A stretch of DNA of 64,000 nucleotides from the NCBI RefSeq assembly GCF_024298965.1, contig NZ_CP085193.1, positions 2,294,001 through 2,358,000 on the forward strand, read 5' to 3'. A program made the position numbers and the translations under genes. The notes under the pieces are model-generated. The model had not been told where the DNA came from. It made no database searches and saw only the letters and a program-made list of their open reading frames with translations. Shown piece by piece: positions 13,853 through 20,525 of the stretch (the first letter of the stretch is position 1; every line of letters begins with the position of its first letter). The DNA is from Streptomyces rapamycinicus NRRL 5491 (lineage in GTDB: Bacteria; Actinomycetota; Actinomycetes; Streptomycetales; Streptomycetaceae).

Positions 13853-15013
13853 ATGTCTGACGTTCCAGCCGTGAAGGCGGCCCTCAAGAGCCAGGCGGTC
13901 GAGACGCCGTCATGGGCGTACGGCAACTCCGGAACCCGCTTCAAGGTCTTCGCCCAGCCCGGTGTCCCGCGCACCCCCCAGGAGAAGCTGGACGACGCCG
14001 CCCAGGTGCACGCCGCCACCGGGGTCGCCCCCACGGTCGCCCTGCACATCCCCTGGGACAGGGTCGAGGACTACGGGGCGCTCGCCAAGTACGCGGGGGA
14101 ACGCGGCCTGAAGCTGGGCGCCATCAACTCCAACGTCTTCCAGGACGACGACTACAAGCTGGGCTCGGTCACCCACCCCGACCCGGCGGTCCGCCGCAAG
14201 GCGCTGGGCCACCTCCTGGAGTGCGTCGACATCATGGACGCCACGGGCTCCCGCGACCTCAAGCTCTGGTTCTCCGACGGCACCAACTACCCCGGCCAGG
14301 ACGACATCGCGGCCCGCCAGGACCGCCTCGCCGAGGCGCTGAGCGCGGTCTACGAGCGCCTCGGCGAGGACCAGCGGATGCTGCTGGAGTACAAGTTCTT
14401 CGAGCCCGCCTTCTACACCACGGACGTCCCGGACTGGGGCACCGCCTACGCCCACTGCCTCAAGCTGGGCCCCAGGGCCCAGGTCTGCGTGGACACCGGC
14501 CACCACGCGCCCGGCACCAACATCGAGTTCATCGTCGCCCTCCTGCTGCGCGAGAGGAAGCTCGGCGCCTTCGACTTCAACTCCCGCTTCTACGCGGACG
14601 ACGACCTCATGGTCGGCGCCGCCGACCCCTTCCAGCTCTTCCGGATCATGTACGAGGTGGTCCGGGGCGGCGGGCTGACCTCGGGGGTCGCCTTCATGCT
14701 CGACCAGTGCCACAACATCGAGCCCAAGATCCCGGCGATCATCCGCTCCGTGATGAACGTCCAGGAGGCCACGGCCAAGGCCCTCCTGGTCGACCGCGAC
14801 GCCCTCGCCACGGCCCAGCGCGAGGGCGACGTACTCGGCGCCAACGCGGTGCTGATGGACGCGTACAACACCGACGTACGGCCGCTGCTGGCCGAGGTCC
14901 GGGAGGAGTCGGGCATCGCCCCGGACCCGATGGCGGCGTACCGGGCCTCGGGGTGGGCGGAGCGGATCGTCGCGGAGCGGGTGGGGGGAGAGCAGGCGGG
15001 GTGGGGTGCGTAA
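13853..15013 (+). CDS. rhaI: L-rhamnose isomerase (RhaI type)
   Basis: A 386-residue cytoplasmic isomerase that converts L-rhamnose to L-rhamnulose. It belongs to the xylose-isomerase-like TIM barrel RhaI type (as in Pseudomonas stutzeri and Rhizobium), not the E. coli RhaA type. Metal and substrate segments are present: ESN-like [57 protein letters not shown] and [16 protein letters not shown], supplying the Glu, Asp, His, Asp ligands. The ATG has a strong GAAGGAG. It has its own promoter and operator. It was probably once followed directly by rhaEW; two mobile elements now separate them by 3.5 kb. Confidence 0.95.
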
Positions 15014-15075: not shown

Positions 15076-15272
15076 CGGCGGCCCTCGCGCGGAAGTGCCG
15101 GGCGAACCGACACCGGTCAGCTCTGTGCCAACCCACGGCGGCAGCCGTCGGGAGCCCCGCATGCGGAACGAGTGGACGACTCCGGCCGCGGAAACCCACT
15201 GAAACAGGTCCGCGCGACACGCAGAGGACGACTATCGGGTAGGCGGGCCGGTTCTCCCGGCCCGCCCCCCAC

Positions 15273-15304
15273 ACCACCGGACATGCGGGCCCGCATCCGG
15301 CGGT
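15273..15304 (-). ncRNA. Group II intron domain V
   Basis: Reads ACCGCCGGATGCGGGCCCGC and onward on the minus strand. It folds as a 9-bp lower stem (one G-U pair), a 2-nt TG bulge on the 3' side and an upper stem TGCG/CGCA. That is the standard domain V shape, with CGC at the catalytic triad position. The loop GGCC differs from the common GNRA loop. Confidence 0.75.
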
Positions 15305-15318
15305 TCGTCCAGTTGATC

Positions 15319-16743
15319 TCAGGAGGTGATGTGATGACGCGAGCGGGACCACGAGTCGGTGAACGATCTGTAGCCTCTGCTCGCCCAGTAGGTGCTGTTC
15401 ATGGCGATCGAGACCGAGTGCGAGCGGGACTGGCGCCAGTATCGCTTGCGCGAGATGACGACCTCTCCCCGATCGACGGTCCGTTCTGGGTCGTAGCCCA
15501 GCTTCCGGAGCATGTGGCGTTTACGTTCGTACGTCTTCCACTGCACCATCTGCGCCTGCCGCAACCTGCGGCGCGTCCATTCGTCGATCTCGCGGAAGAC
15601 CCTTCCGGACTCCGCGAGGCCGAAGTAGGCCACCCACCCGGTCGTAAACCGGTTGAGCTTGTCCAGCCTGTGATCCATGGACACACCCCACGTCCGGGAG
15701 GTGTAGCGCCGGACCGTGCTCTTCAGGCGTTTGACCGCCTTCCCAGCGACCCGGATCTTCACCTGTCCCTTGGTGAGGTAGTAGCCGAACCCGAGGAGAG
15801 ACGTCCACCAGATGGGGCACGCCTTGGACTTCTCCTTGTTCACCTTCAGCTTCAGGGTCTTCTCGATGAAGCCCGTGACCGAGGCGAGGGTCCGTTCCGC
15901 CGCTCGCTTGGAGCGGACGAAGATCATTGCATCGTCCGCGTACCGCACGAACCGGTGTCCACGCTTGAAGAGTTCACGGTCGAGGTCATCCAACATGATG
16001 TTGGAAAGCAGCGGGGAAAGAGGCGAACCCTGAGGTGTTCCTTCCCCGGAGCTAATGACCACCCCTTCGGCCATGATTCCGGCCTCCAGGTATCGGCGAA
16101 TCAGCTTCAGGACCTTCTTGTCCTTCACCCGGCGGGCCACCCGCGCCATGAGCGCATCGTGGTTCACCCGGTCGAAGAACTTGTCAAGATCCAGATCCAC
16201 AGCCCATCGGTTTCCATCCTGAACAGCTCGGCGGCCAGCCCTCACGGCCTGGTGAGCCGAGCGCCCCGGACGGAACCCGAACGACGACCCCGAGAAATGG
16301 GGGTCGAATACGGGCACCAGAACCTGGGCAATAGCCTGCTGGATCAGCCGATCCAGCACACCCGGAACACCCAGCATCCGCTCCCCGCCATTCGGCTTAG
16401 GGATAGTCACCCGACGCACGGGAGCGGGCCTGTATGTTCCCACGTCGAGCTCAGCCCATACCCTGGGCCAGTTCTGGGCGATCCACGGCCGCAATTGCTC
16501 CGTGGTCATCCCATCGACGCCGGGGGCTCCCCGGTTCGTCTCGACGCGCCTGAGCGCCGCGAGCAAGTTCTCCTTCGAGAACAGCACTTCCCAGAGGGAC
16601 GGCTCGCGGTGATCTTCGGTCCGGTGCCGCGCCGCCAAGTCGCTGCGCTCCACAGGCGGGACGGCCGTATGCACCGGCGCCATCACCTGTGGATCTGCCG
16701 TAGCAGGCTTGCAGCGGTCATTGCGGCCTGGGCGAGCAGACAC
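15319..16743 (-). CDS. ltrA: Group II intron reverse transcriptase/maturase
   Basis: A 474-residue intron-encoded protein. The GTG start is preceded by GGGGGAAGG. Reverse transcriptase blocks run from about residue 50 to 330: RGAPGVDGM (block 0/1), FGFRPGRSAHQAV (RT2a/3), DLDLDKFFDRVNHD (RT3), GTPQGSPLSPLLSNI (RT4) and YADD at 268-271 (RT5 active site). A maturase/thumb (X) region follows, FTTGWVAYFGLAES and later. There is no HNH endonuclease domain, as in class C introns, which insert mainly into single-stranded or hairpin-adjacent sites. The ORF appears intact, so splicing and mobility are plausible. Confidence 0.93.
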   Translation of the reverse strand: MSARPGRNDRCKPATADPQVMAPVHTAVPPVERSDLAARHRTEDHREPSLWEVLFSKENLLAALRRVETNRGAPGVDGMTTEQLRPWIAQNWPRVWAELDVGTYRPAPVRRVTIPKPNGGERMLGVPGVLDRLIQQAIAQVLVPVFDPHFSGSSFGFRPGRSAHQAVRAGRRAVQDGNRWAVDLDLDKFFDRVNHDALMARVARRVKDKKVLKLIRRYLEAGIMAEGVVISSGEGTPQGSPLSPLLSNIMLDDLDRELFKRGHRFVRYADDAMIFVRSKRAAERTLASVTGFIEKTLKLKVNKEKSKACPIWWTSLLGFGYYLTKGQVKIRVAGKAVKRLKSTVRRYTSRTWGVSMDHRLDKLNRFTTGWVAYFGLAESGRVFREIDEWTRRRLRQAQMVQWKTYERKRHMLRKLGYDPERTVDRGEVVISRKRYWRQSRSHSVSIAMNSTYWASRGYRSFTDSWSRSRHHITS

Positions 16744-17183
16744 CCTTCCCCCGATCCACTAAACGTTCAGTCCTTCCCGAGCCCTTGTCGGCCTGCTGCC
16801 TACCCGCTCGGTACTATGACCTCTGCTGACTTCTGCCCGGCAAATCAGCGGGATTGCTCCCGACGATCGTCACGATCTCCGCCATCACACGGTTACAGGT
16901 GACACCCGGACAGATCTCCCCGAATAAAGACGACAACTTTCCCCGGATGCCCGCCGCATATACCCCGCGCCATTCTTGGTGAGAACGGGCATCGACGTCA
17001 TCAGCCGCCTTACCCTGGACACGTGGCCTCCAATGCGATTCTTGTACATCGGTACCCGGTTTTGCCTTCGGCTTCCTTCCCACCCCTCCTCACGGAGACG
17101 CAGTTGCCGTTCGGCTATCGAGTTAGTCTCACCTCTGCTCGTAGGGACTTTCACCCATAAGCTGCCGCCCGCGTCGGGCGTAC

Positions 17184-17330
17184 TGACTTCCTCCCCCGCC
17201 TAACGGCGGAGGATTCCAGCGGTCGCCCGCTGGGTTTCCTGCTTCACCGACGACCGCCCCGTCCGGGAGGACTCCCGTTGAGGTCTTACACCGTCTCCAC
17301 AGGCAGACGCCGCCAGCCCGGCGGCCAGGA
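17184..17330 (-). ncRNA. Predicted omega/reRNA scaffold of the TnpB element
   Basis: In active TnpB systems a guide RNA covers the 3' end of tnpB and the right element end, with the guide taken from the flanking sequence. The matching region here is the last ~130 bp of tnpB plus the right-end hairpin. Transcription and ends cannot be seen in sequence; the call rests on position only. Confidence 0.35.
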
Positions 17331-18327
17331 TGTTGCGTGCCGCGTTCACGTCGCGGTCATGCACGGCGCCGCAGTCGCACGTCCACTCGCGGACGTTCAA
17401 CGGCAGCTTCTCGCGGACCGTGCCGCAGTTCCCGCACAGCTTGCTGGACGGGAACCAGCGGTCGATCACGACGAGCTCGCGCCCGTACCAGGCGCACTTG
17501 TACTCCAGCATCATGCGCAGGTTCGCCCATGCCGCGTCCGAGATGGCGCGCGCGAGGCGGCTGTTCTTCAGCAGGTTGCGGACAGTCAGGTCCTCAATCA
17601 CGACCGTTTGGTTCTCACGGACGAGACGAGTGGTCAGCTTGTGAAGGGAGTCCCGGCGCCGGTCGGCGATGCGGGCGTGGACGCGGGCCACCTTCACCCG
17701 GGCCCTGGCCCGGTTGGCGATCTTCTCCCCGGTGGACAGGGTCACCAGAGAGGTGATCCCGGCGTCCAGGCCGACCGCCGCACTCGTGGCGGGGGCAGGG
17801 GCGATGGTGTCCTCGACGAGCAGGGAGACGAACCAGCGGCCTGCCCTGTCGCGGGACACGGTCACCGTCGTCGGCTCCGCACCCTCCGGCAGGGGGCGCG
17901 ACCAGCGAATGTCCAGCGACCCGGCCATCTTCGCCAGAGTCAGTGTTCCGTCGCGCCATGTGAAGGCGCTGCGGGTGTACTCGGCCGACGCCCGGGACTG
18001 CTTCCGGCTCTTGTACCGGGGGTACCTGGCCCGCTTGGCGAAGAAGTTCCCGAACGCCGTCTGAAGATGGCGCAGCGCCTGCTGGAGCGGGACGGAGGAC
18101 ACCTCGCACAGGAAGGCGAGTTCCTCGGTCTTCTTCCACTCCGTCAGCGCGGCGGAGGACTGCACGTAGGAGATGCGGCGCTGCTCGCCGTACCAGGCTC
18201 GCGTGCGCTCCTCCAGCGCCTTGTTGTACACGAGGCGGACGCAGCCGAACGTGCGGGACAGCTCCGCTGCCTGCTCGTCCGTGGGGTAAAAGCGGTACTT
18301 GAACGCCCGCTTGACCTGCCGCGCCAC
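17200..18327 (-). CDS. tnpB: TnpB RNA-guided nuclease homologue, shortened
   Basis: A 375-residue OrfB/TnpB protein with a GTG start. It has the N-terminal helix-turn-helix-like KRAFKYRFYPT and WED/REC regions. RuvC residues are present: Asp188 (GLDAGITSL), Glu245 (VIEDLTV) and the Asp pair at 324/326 (HDRDVNAARN). The zinc ribbon has Cys298/Cys301 and Cys317/Cys319. The interval from the first Asp to Glu is 57 residues, against 87 in ISDra2 TnpB as I recall it. The frame passes straight from GEKIAN to RARARVKVARVHARIA, so about 30 residues of the helical segment seem missing. The catalytic set is complete, but activity is doubtful. Confidence 0.88.
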   Translation of the reverse strand: MARQVKRAFKYRFYPTDEQAAELSRTFGCVRLVYNKALEERTRAWYGEQRRISYVQSSAALTEWKKTEELAFLCEVSSVPLQQALRHLQTAFGNFFAKRARYPRYKSRKQSRASAEYTRSAFTWRDGTLTLAKMAGSLDIRWSRPLPEGAEPTTVTVSRDRAGRWFVSLLVEDTIAPAPATSAAVGLDAGITSLVTLSTGEKIANRARARVKVARVHARIADRRRDSLHKLTTRLVRENQTVVIEDLTVRNLLKNSRLARAISDAAWANLRMMLEYKCAWYGRELVVIDRWFPSSKLCGNCGTVREKLPLNVREWTCDCGAVHDRDVNAARNILAAGLAASACGDGVRPQRESSRTGRSSVKQETQRATAGILRR

Positions 18328-18473
18328 ACCTCACATTTTATCATCTCCAGTGTGAGCGGCAGCTGTCGACCGGTGGCTGGTCTACGTCGGATCGCTCTGA
18401 CGCCCCTTCGGCTTTTCCCGCCCCGCTCCGTAGGAGTCCGTTTCCTCCCCGGCCTGAAGGCCGGGGTAACCAC

Positions 18474-18480
18474 GGAGGAA
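18474..18480 (+). promoter_or_regulatory. rhaEW: Ribosome-binding site of rhaEW at the edge of the TnpB element
   Basis: GGAGGAA, with 5 nt before the ATG at 18486. It directly adjoins the left-end hairpin of the TnpB element (18447-18466), so the element either stopped just short of the site or supplied it. Confidence 0.6.
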
Positions 18481-18485
18481 TCCTG

Positions 18486-20525
18486 ATGACCGCAGAACCA
18501 CATCCCGAGGCGGGCGCGCTGTTGGGGCGCTCGCACCGGTTGGGCGCTGATCCGCGTAATACCAACTACGCGGGGGGAAACACCTCCGCCAAGGGCACCG
18601 CGACCGATCCCGTCACCGGCCAGGACGTCGAGCTGATGTGGGTCAAGGGCTCCGGTGGCGATCTGGGCACCCTCACCCGCTCCGGGCTCGCCGCGCTCCG
18701 GCTGGACCGCCTTCGTGCGCTCACCGGTGTCTATCCCGGGGTGGACCGCGAGGACGAGATGGTCGCGGCGTTCGACTACTGCCTGCACGGCAAGGGCGGG
18801 GCCGCGCCGTCCATCGACACCGCCATGCACGGCCTGGTGGACGCCGCCCATGTCGACCACCTCCACCCCGACTCCGGTATCGCCCTCGCGTGCGCCGCCG
18901 ACGGCGAGGCGCTCACCAAGGAGTGTTTCGGCAACCAGGTCGTCTGGGCGCCCTGGCGCCGCCCCGGCTTCCAGCTGGGCCTGGACATCGCCGCCATCAA
19001 GAAGGCCAATCCGCAGGCCATCGGCTGCGTCCTCGGCGGCCACGGCATCACCGCCTGGGGCGACACCTCCGACGCGTGCGAGGCGAACTCGCTCCGCATC
19101 ATCCGCACCGCCGAGGAGTTCCTCACCGCACGCGGCAAGGCGGACCCGTTCGGCCCCGTCGTCCACCCCACCCTCCCCGAAGCCGAGCGCCGCGCCCGTG
19201 CGGCCGCCCTGGCCCCGGTGATCCGGGGCCTGGCCTCCACCGACCGCCCCCAGGTCGGTCACTTCACGGACAGCGACACCGTCCTGGACTTCGTCTCCCG
19301 CGCCGAACACCCCCGACTGGCGGCCCTCGGCACCTCCTGCCCGGACCACTTCCTGCGCACCAAGGTCCGCCCCCTGGTCCTGGACCTCCCCCCGGACTCG
19401 CCCCTCGACACGACGATCGACCGCCTCAGGGAACTCCACACCGCGTACCGCACCGGCTACGCGGCCTACTACGACCGCCACGCCACCCCCGACTCTCCGC
19501 CCATGCGTGGCGCGGATCCCGCCATCGTGCTGATCCCCGGCATCGGGATGTTCAGCTACGGCAAGGACAAGCAAACGGCCCGCGTGGCAGGCGAGTTCTA
19601 CGTCAACGCGATCAACGTCATGCGCGGCGCCGAAGCGGTTTCCACCTACTCCCCCATCGAGGAGTCGGAGAAGTTCCGCATCGAGTACTGGGCGCTCGAG
19701 GAAGCCAAGCTCCAGCGCATGCCCAAGCCCAAGCCCCTCGCCACCCGCATCGCCCTGGTGACCGGCGCGGGCTCCGGTATCGGCAAGGCGATCGCCCACC
19801 GCCTCGTGGCCGAGGGCGCATGCGTCGTAGTCGCGGACGTCAACCCGGAGTCGGCGCAAGCCGTGGCCCAAGAGCTCGGCGGCCCGGACAAGGCCACGGC
19901 GGTCACCGCCGACGTCACCTCCGAAGAGCAGATCAAGGCGGCGTTCGAACAAGCGGCGCTGGCCTTCGGCGGCGTGGACATCCTCGTCAACAACGCCGGG
20001 ATCAGCATCTCCAAACCGCTCCTCGACACCACCACCGCCGACTGGGACCTCCAGCACAACATCATGGCGCGAGGCAGCTTCCTGGCCTCCCGCGAAGCGG
20101 CAAGGACCTTCATCGCCCAGAACATGGGCGGTGACATCGTGTACATCACGTCCAAGAACGCCGTGTTCGCGGGCCCGAACAACATCGCCTACTCCGCGAC
20201 CAAGGCCGACCAGGCCCATCAAGTCCGACTCCTGGCAGCCGAATTGGGCGGGCACGGCATCCGCGTCAACGGCGTGAACCCCGACGGCGTAGTCCAGGGC
20301 TCCGGCATCTTCGCAGGCGGCTGGGGCGCACAGCGCGCGGCCGTGTACGGCGTCCCCGAGGAGAAGCTGGGCGAGTTCTACGCCCAACGCACCCTGCTCA
20401 AGCGCGAAGTGCTCCCCTCCCATGTGGCGAACGCAGTCTTCGCCCTCGTCGGCGGCGACCTGAGCCACACCACGGGTCTGCACGTCCCGGTCGACGCCGG
20501 TGTCGCGGCGGCGTTCCTGCGCTGA
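18486..20525 (+). CDS. rhaEW: Bifunctional rhamnulose-1-phosphate aldolase / lactaldehyde dehydrogenase
   Basis: A 679-residue two-domain enzyme. The N-terminal class II aldolase domain (to about residue 410) cleaves L-rhamnulose 1-phosphate to DHAP and L-lactaldehyde; zinc ligands are His125 and His127 in DHLHPD and the His of GGHGITAWG. The C-terminal short-chain dehydrogenase domain has TGAGSGIG (from residue 426), NNAG, a Ser in ITSKN and Tyr569-x3-Lys573 (YSATK), and oxidises lactaldehyde to L-lactate. This matches the RhaEW architecture known from Bacillus and Chloroflexus. Lactate is then handled by lutABC downstream. The gene is cut off from rhaI by two mobile elements, and no clear promoter is visible in the 158 bp before it. 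Confidence 0.95.
   Translation: MTAEPHPEAGALLGRSHRLGADPRNTNYAGGNTSAKGTATDPVTGQDVELMWVKGSGGDLGTLTRSGLAALRLDRLRALTGVYPGVDREDEMVAAFDYCLHGKGGAAPSIDTAMHGLVDAAHVDHLHPDSGIALACAADGEALTKECFGNQVVWAPWRRPGFQLGLDIAAIKKANPQAIGCVLGGHGITAWGDTSDACEANSLRIIRTAEEFLTARGKADPFGPVVHPTLPEAERRARAAALAPVIRGLASTDRPQVGHFTDSDTVLDFVSRAEHPRLAALGTSCPDHFLRTKVRPLVLDLPPDSPLDTTIDRLRELHTAYRTGYAAYYDRHATPDSPPMRGADPAIVLIPGIGMFSYGKDKQTARVAGEFYVNAINVMRGAEAVSTYSPIEESEKFRIEYWALEEAKLQRMPKPKPLATRIALVTGAGSGIGKAIAHRLVAEGACVVVADVNPESAQAVAQELGGPDKATAVTADVTSEEQIKAAFEQAALAFGGVDILVNNAGISISKPLLDTTTADWDLQHNIMARGSFLASREAARTFIAQNMGGDIVYITSKNAVFAGPNNIAYSATKADQAHQVRLLAAELGGHGIRVNGVNPDGVVQGSGIFAGGWGAQRAAVYGVPEEKLGEFYAQRTLLKREVLPSHVANAVFALVGGDLSHTTGLHVPVDAGVAAAFLR

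Follow-up and report, generated by a model that had tools for sequence, protein, structure and literature searches.

In a 64,000-nucleotide stretch (the window) of the Streptomyces rapamycinicus NRRL 5491 genome (G000; a single contig of 12.47 Mb), an IS200/IS605 TnpB element is interrupted at its right end, one base inside the transposon, by a class C group II retro-intron. Every 5′ junction mapped for this intron lineage (4/4) lies at a TnpB right end, in four TnpB elements from two element families and two Streptomyces species, and we propose that IS200/IS605 TnpB right ends are probably the insertion site of the lineage. The intron and the element lie on the minus strand, and their junction is defined by the following features.

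15234–17183, minus strand: class C group II intron, 1,950 nt (Rfam matches; identical second copy at G000:C1:488283-490232)
17184–18485, minus strand: TnpB element (solo tnpB) up to GTCA, with its last base at 15233 (alignment with copies c2, c3 and c4 and plasmid relatives)
15233, minus strand: A, the final base of the TnpB element, on the far side of the intron (family comparison; joined-flank reading frame of the second copy)
17184–17187, minus strand: GTCA, which serves as intron-binding site 1 (IBS1) and opens the right-end motif GTCAA (alignment, pairing)
17192–17213, minus strand: right-end hairpin, the end of the omega-RNA scaffold and landing pad of the intron (fold)
16997–17000, minus strand: domain I loop bases UGAC, the exon-binding site 1 (EBS1) (complementary to GUCA; loop and exon covary among relatives)
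15234–15305, minus strand: domain V and intron 3′ end (Rfam RF00029, 43.5 bits, gathering score 40)
15319–16743, minus strand: intron-encoded protein, 474 aa (Pfam: RVT_1 and GIIM only, that is, reverse transcriptase and maturase)

Group IIC introns are short, encode a reverse transcriptase/maturase without an endonuclease and insert 3′ of a hairpin with an IBS1–EBS1 pairing of 3–4 bp (PMC7923331, in the part available). The window intron shares this organization. It has a ribozyme core and a domain V, with three Rfam matches above gathering scores in all (17099-16929, 128.5 bits, and 16868-16770, 60.9 bits, both minus strand, besides domain V), and it lies 3′ of a hairpin with a short EBS1–IBS1 pairing. 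Pfam finds no endonuclease domain in the 474-aa protein, whose closest solved structure is the GsI-IIC reverse transcriptase (E 1e-144).

A second intron, at G000:C1:488283-490232, is identical to that of the window from base 1 to base 1950 (17183 to 15234), and both copies sit directly after GGAGGAAGTCA (the second junction reads GGAGGAAGTCA/GTACG). The two host TnpB elements are only 72–77% alike in DNA, with the intron at the same base in both; identical introns in diverged elements thus indicate two separate arrivals of the intron. On the 3′ side the two copies share AGT before their sequences diverge. The last element base was placed by two observations. An A follows GTCA in 11/11 scored members of the TnpB family (two with the intron, nine without; 17 elements were examined, six had no usable right-end match and were left unscored, and matches of L151 and L153 inside a neighbouring gene were set aside). 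At the second copy, joining the flanks without the A lets the upstream gene end in a stop codon that overlaps the next ATG, while keeping the A would fuse the two genes. Therefore 15233 is the last base of the element and the old guide starts at 15232. A likeness between the 3′ flanks AGTCGTCCTC and AGTGTCCTC was considered as a shared element end and rejected, since one element base and two ribosome-binding regions read backwards suffice to account for it.

A preliminary description of this locus had placed the intron directly against the TnpB element on the minus strand, with the boundary at 17183/17184. The Rfam domains and the identical second copy bear this out with corrections of one to ten bases, and the junction indeed falls at 17183/17184. 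GTCA does abut the intron, as had been described, but the full right end is GTCAA, with its last base beyond the intron at 15233. Likewise the former guide does lie past the intron but begins at 15232, not 15233, and the left boundary given as 18475 moves to 18485, immediately after TCAT. The idea that the right-end hairpin is the landing pad of a class C intron agrees with the EBS1–IBS1 pairing and with the hairpin fold, although a 117-nt right-end stretch as a whole folds barely better than its shuffles (z −1.77; 12/200 shuffles equal).

The same arrangement recurs outside S. rapamycinicus. The pattern GTCA plus intron start was sought across 392 Streptomyces genomes and matched three (G237 twice, G168 and G101); the G168 and G101 matches are due to chance, with neither intron nor TnpB nearby. 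In Streptomyces G237 a related intron lies at this same position in two more IS605 elements. Each junction follows a TnpB gene, the two genes being ∼71% alike where compared; each element encodes a Y1 transposase (TnpA), and both TnpBs retain D/E/D (by eye). Four intron 3′ ends in G237 are of this lineage's type (95% over 55–58 nt) and all are followed by C; two are of another type and are followed by T. G382 holds a 5′-truncated intron remnant, again followed by C, and 4/4 intron-free elements of that TnpB family in G382 read GTCAC. The base after the intron therefore fits the element end in each case (A in 2/2 copies of G000, C in G237 and G382), which places the intron one base inside the transposon in two element families. 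A 40-base pattern with up to 3 mismatches revealed no more 5′ ends in G237 and none in G382.

GAAGTCA plus intron start was found in 1/396 genomes of a phylum sample, and the intron protein, with an E value of 1e-170 or below, in 1/353 genomes of an order sample (G000 in both). At E 1e-150 the protein was found in 7/384 genomes of a genus sample, with > 80% identity only in G000 and G382; this search misses G237 because the intron body is unassembled there. There is overlap between the three samples, and no more than two or four candidates per genome were scored in the DNA and protein searches. A scan of 84,980 species genomes gave 23 loci with the intron protein, and the lineage itself only in Streptomyces luteolifulvus (the G382 contig). 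Among plasmids 152 records match the intron in part, none over 80% of its length, and viral contigs yielded no junction. Protein cluster P0001, identical to the intron protein, has three member sequences on nine contigs, and close strains probably hold further intron copies. Another 21 protein clusters are 70–86% alike to the intron protein. In G290 (L118, L121) a related class C intron is inserted at the 3′ end of a further copy of the same intron, forming a tandem pair.

At the target, EBS1 UGAC (17000-16997) pairs with IBS1 GUCA (17187-17184), and this pairing of a domain I loop with the exon end also fixes the 5′ end of the intron. Loop and exon covary across relatives: at least four Watson–Crick pairs, counted from the last exon base, are formed in 13/19 own pairs versus 14/133 swapped pairs, with eight different loops. 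Here the two G000 copies enter as two of the 19 pairs; G359 (truncated intron), G030, G367 and G349 (5′ end unaligned), two G022 contigs (3 nt of exon) and one G069 copy (no clear start) were left out of the count.

Relatives of the intron (67–72% alike in DNA; proteins 63–65% where measured) insert elsewhere. None of the 17 compared insertions ends in GTCA; 16 of the sites are terminator-like by eye, and the remaining one lies at another intron's 3′ end. One could therefore argue that there is no specialization at all, and that a terminator-seeking class C intron hit TnpB right ends simply as strong hairpins, the cut through the guide being incidental and inconsequential. The terminator-like hairpins of the relatives speak for this, as do the damaged appearance of the G000 TnpB elements and a genome that retains only a broken Y1 transposase remnant. 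It is hard to reconcile with the four mapped junctions: spread over two species and two element families, all of them (4/4) fall at one and the same base of a TnpB right end, and the EBS1 matches. Moreover, hairpins of at least 8 bp followed by GTCA occur 13 times in the 64-kb window (both strands), and just one of these is a TnpB right end; scaled to 12.47 Mb this corresponds to ∼2,500 such sites, and both G000 intron copies are at TnpB right ends. We consider an absence of specialization improbable.

Several observations nevertheless weigh against TnpB right ends as the preferred site of the lineage. The known 5′ junctions number only four; for two of the four 3′ ends in G237 no 5′ end was found, and 5′ and 3′ ends are unlinked there, the intron body being missing from the assembly. 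The intron is present in only 2/4 compared TnpB elements of G000. Both intron-side TnpBs of that genome look damaged: in that of the window 28 residues are missing after RuvC-I (84 nt of the DNA alignment; a gap against ISDra2 TnpB as well), and in that of the second copy Gly replaces the RuvC-I Asp. Finally, the exon pairing comprises just four bases, and the 12 other hairpin-plus-GTCA sites of the window are free of introns, so either an additional specificity factor is needed or chance contributes.

The position of the intron bears on the guide RNA of TnpB. In ISDra2, according to the available part of PMC8612924, the TnpB-bound RNA consists of the right end plus ∼16 nt of flank, the transposon-adjacent motif (TAM) is the target motif found at the left end, and cutting requires both TAM and guide. 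TnpB produces its omega RNA out of its own mRNA (PMC10278001, likewise in part). Two segments would compete for the role of guide at the window locus.

15217–15232, minus strand: the 16 nt of the former guide, 1,950 nt away from the scaffold (position after GTCAA; length from ISDra2, PMC8612924, in the part available); read backwards it is a ribosome-binding region
17168–17183, minus strand: intron 5′ end, the putative guide in unspliced RNA (from its position)

We propose a mechanism in which the TnpB right-end hairpin stands in for the terminator hairpin of the intron's relatives and the EBS1 loop UGAC would read the GTCA that opens the right-end motif. The intron lies after GTCA, one base short of the transposon end (GTCA^A in G000, and GTCA^C in two other Streptomyces). 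It breaks the presumed TnpA cleavage motif in the DNA and shifts the guide 1,950 nt from the scaffold, and such a split right end should block excision by TnpA and probably holds the transposon in place. The tnpB transcript, as omega-RNA precursor, would read scaffold, intron, A, guide. Splicing is expected to rejoin GUCA to A and the old guide, restoring the guide exactly, whereas RNA trimmed before splicing would carry the first bases of the intron as a presumably idle guide with no evident TAM-flanked target. For the host the intron is probably near-neutral.

It is possible, if on balance unlikely, that the lineage evolved for the scaffold–guide border itself, with splicing gating the homing guide and insertion locking the transposon end, so that a retroelement disarms and captures an RNA-guided DNA element. 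If true, TnpB activity would be set by splicing efficiency in G237, where the TnpBs have D/E/D and each element has its TnpA. Interrupted elements would in any case be predicted to yield a whole guide RNA only after splicing, and they offer natural test cases for the competition between splicing and omega-RNA processing. In IStrons, splicing and guide RNA reportedly compete (a 2024 paper).

The preliminary description had gone further and suggested a switch, in which unspliced RNA uses the intron 5′ end as guide and spliced RNA the old one. In an active switch both would be used by cell or transposon. Its geometry holds, in that the intron 5′ end now adjoins the scaffold in DNA and splicing would, judging from the arrangement of the sequence, restore the old guide. 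Because omega RNA derives from TnpB's own mRNA, trimming and splicing could also compete (PMC10278001, in part). The switch itself found no support. Both intron 5′ ends in G000 follow GTCA and not the TAM-like TCAT (40-base pattern, up to 3 mismatches), and hence a guide derived from the intron has no evident target (shorter genome matches were not searched). A working switch at the window locus is doubtful in view of the 28 residues missing from the window TnpB, the loss of the RuvC-I Asp from the second and the broken Y1 remnant, and we regard an active switch as very unlikely.

Least probable of all is a composite, IStron-like transposon in which TnpB element and intron move jointly: the two do occur together at two places in the genome, but the introns are identical while their TnpB elements are 72–77% alike (gene conversion of the intron alone could also produce this), the same TnpB family occurs free of introns (c3, c4, plasmid relatives), the intron splits the right-end motif, and no copies sharing element and intron with intact composite ends were seen at several sites.

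A specialized class C intron at TnpB right ends would resemble several known systems. Like the class C introns at terminators and the group IIC-attC introns of integrons, the window intron has a similar protein, a site 3′ of a hairpin and a short pairing; it differs in using the right end of a TnpB transposon as its hairpin and in entering that transposon one base inside, between scaffold and guide. TnpB right ends would thus join terminators and attC sites as class C landing pads. IStrons, which combine a group I intron with an IS200/IS605 or IS607 element and move as a unit (PMC4227781, in the part available), likewise join a self-splicing intron to a TnpB-type element. Here the intron is group II, sits 3′ of the scaffold, comes from outside into elements already in place and does not move along with them, as the identical introns in diverged elements indicate. 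It would be a group II counterpart of the group I IStrons, arrived at by another route. With ISDra2-type TnpB elements the window element shares a right-end guide RNA and a TAM at the left end (PMC8612924, in part); it differs in a guide parted from its scaffold by the intron and in its motifs, the putative TAM TCAT and the right end GTCAA. The available part of PMC7923331 describes a cassette array with a group IIB intron beside an IS605 element, an arrangement different from that of the window. An intron at a TnpB right end was not reported in the literature searched (titles and abstract starts; subscription journals thinly covered).

The remaining features of the element are as follows.

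17200–18327, minus strand: tnpB, 375 aa (open reading frame (ORF), Pfam, comparison with c2, c3, c4 and ISDra2 TnpB)
18447–18466, minus strand: left-end hairpin of the TnpB element (sequence)
18486–18489, plus strand: ATGA, in which the next gene has its start codon and whose complement TCAT is the putative TAM (family left ends)

The element belongs to IS200/IS605 by its OrfB/TnpB domains, its hairpins at both ends and its fixed left-end motif. HTH_OrfB_IS605, OrfB_IS605 and TNB all score above their Pfam cut-offs, and the window TnpB keeps the RuvC D/E/D and the zinc ribbon. The second intron-bearing element's TnpB (L070 6267-7469) is an otherwise open 400-aa frame apart from its Gly; in ISDra2 TnpB the change D191A abolished cutting (PMC8612924, in part), and the L070 protein is possibly nuclease-dead, judging by this residue. 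No intact TnpA (Y1) was found in the element or in the genome, whose sole Y1_Tnp match is partial (C1:8181295-8181486, L148; model positions 56-118) and broken by a stop. The G000 TnpB elements look stranded, and that of the window would at present be immobile unless TnpA is supplied. The intron of G000 may thus sit in dying transposons, which does not appear to be so in G237.

The locus lies between genes that end at 15013 and start at 18486 (window ORFs). These we take to be a rhamnose isomerase gene and an aldolase/dehydrogenase gene, respectively. In an empty-site comparison 46/61 genomes matched the gene start (some matches short and weak), and the spacers of 29 loci had no usable match. 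In the relatives compared, the intergenic spacer is not conserved, so that empty sites did not place the element ends. The left end was set at 18485, directly following TCAT, which read in antisense holds the start codon of the gene beginning at 18486. Of 16 family members with a recognizable left end, 15 have TCAT in front of it and one has TCAA.

Elements of this TnpB family are inserted directly behind TCAT, which often represents a gene's start codon in antisense (window 18474-18489; L070, L071, L149-L152, L154-L161). Their left ends bear a Shine–Dalgarno-like GGAGG or AAGGAG, spaced to substitute for the lost one. At plasmid loci with an annotated divergent gene at the left end, the annotated start is exactly that ATG in 4/4 cases (L149-L152). 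An ORF of at least 60 aa runs from the left-end ATG in 10/11 scripted cases versus 19/46 control TCAT sites (a closed ORF being required of the controls). The literature searched contained no joint treatment of TnpB, transposon-adjacent motif and start codon. The right end of the window element (17173-17279) weakly matches the HgcC RNA family (20.8 bits, gathering score 50, E 0.2), with a similar closing GAGGAGGUCA; that HgcC itself is a TnpB right-end RNA is a guess. In three Streptomyces plasmids (L149, L151, L153) a TnpB element is flanked by rfbB, whose start it faces, and by a glucose-1-phosphate thymidylyltransferase gene.

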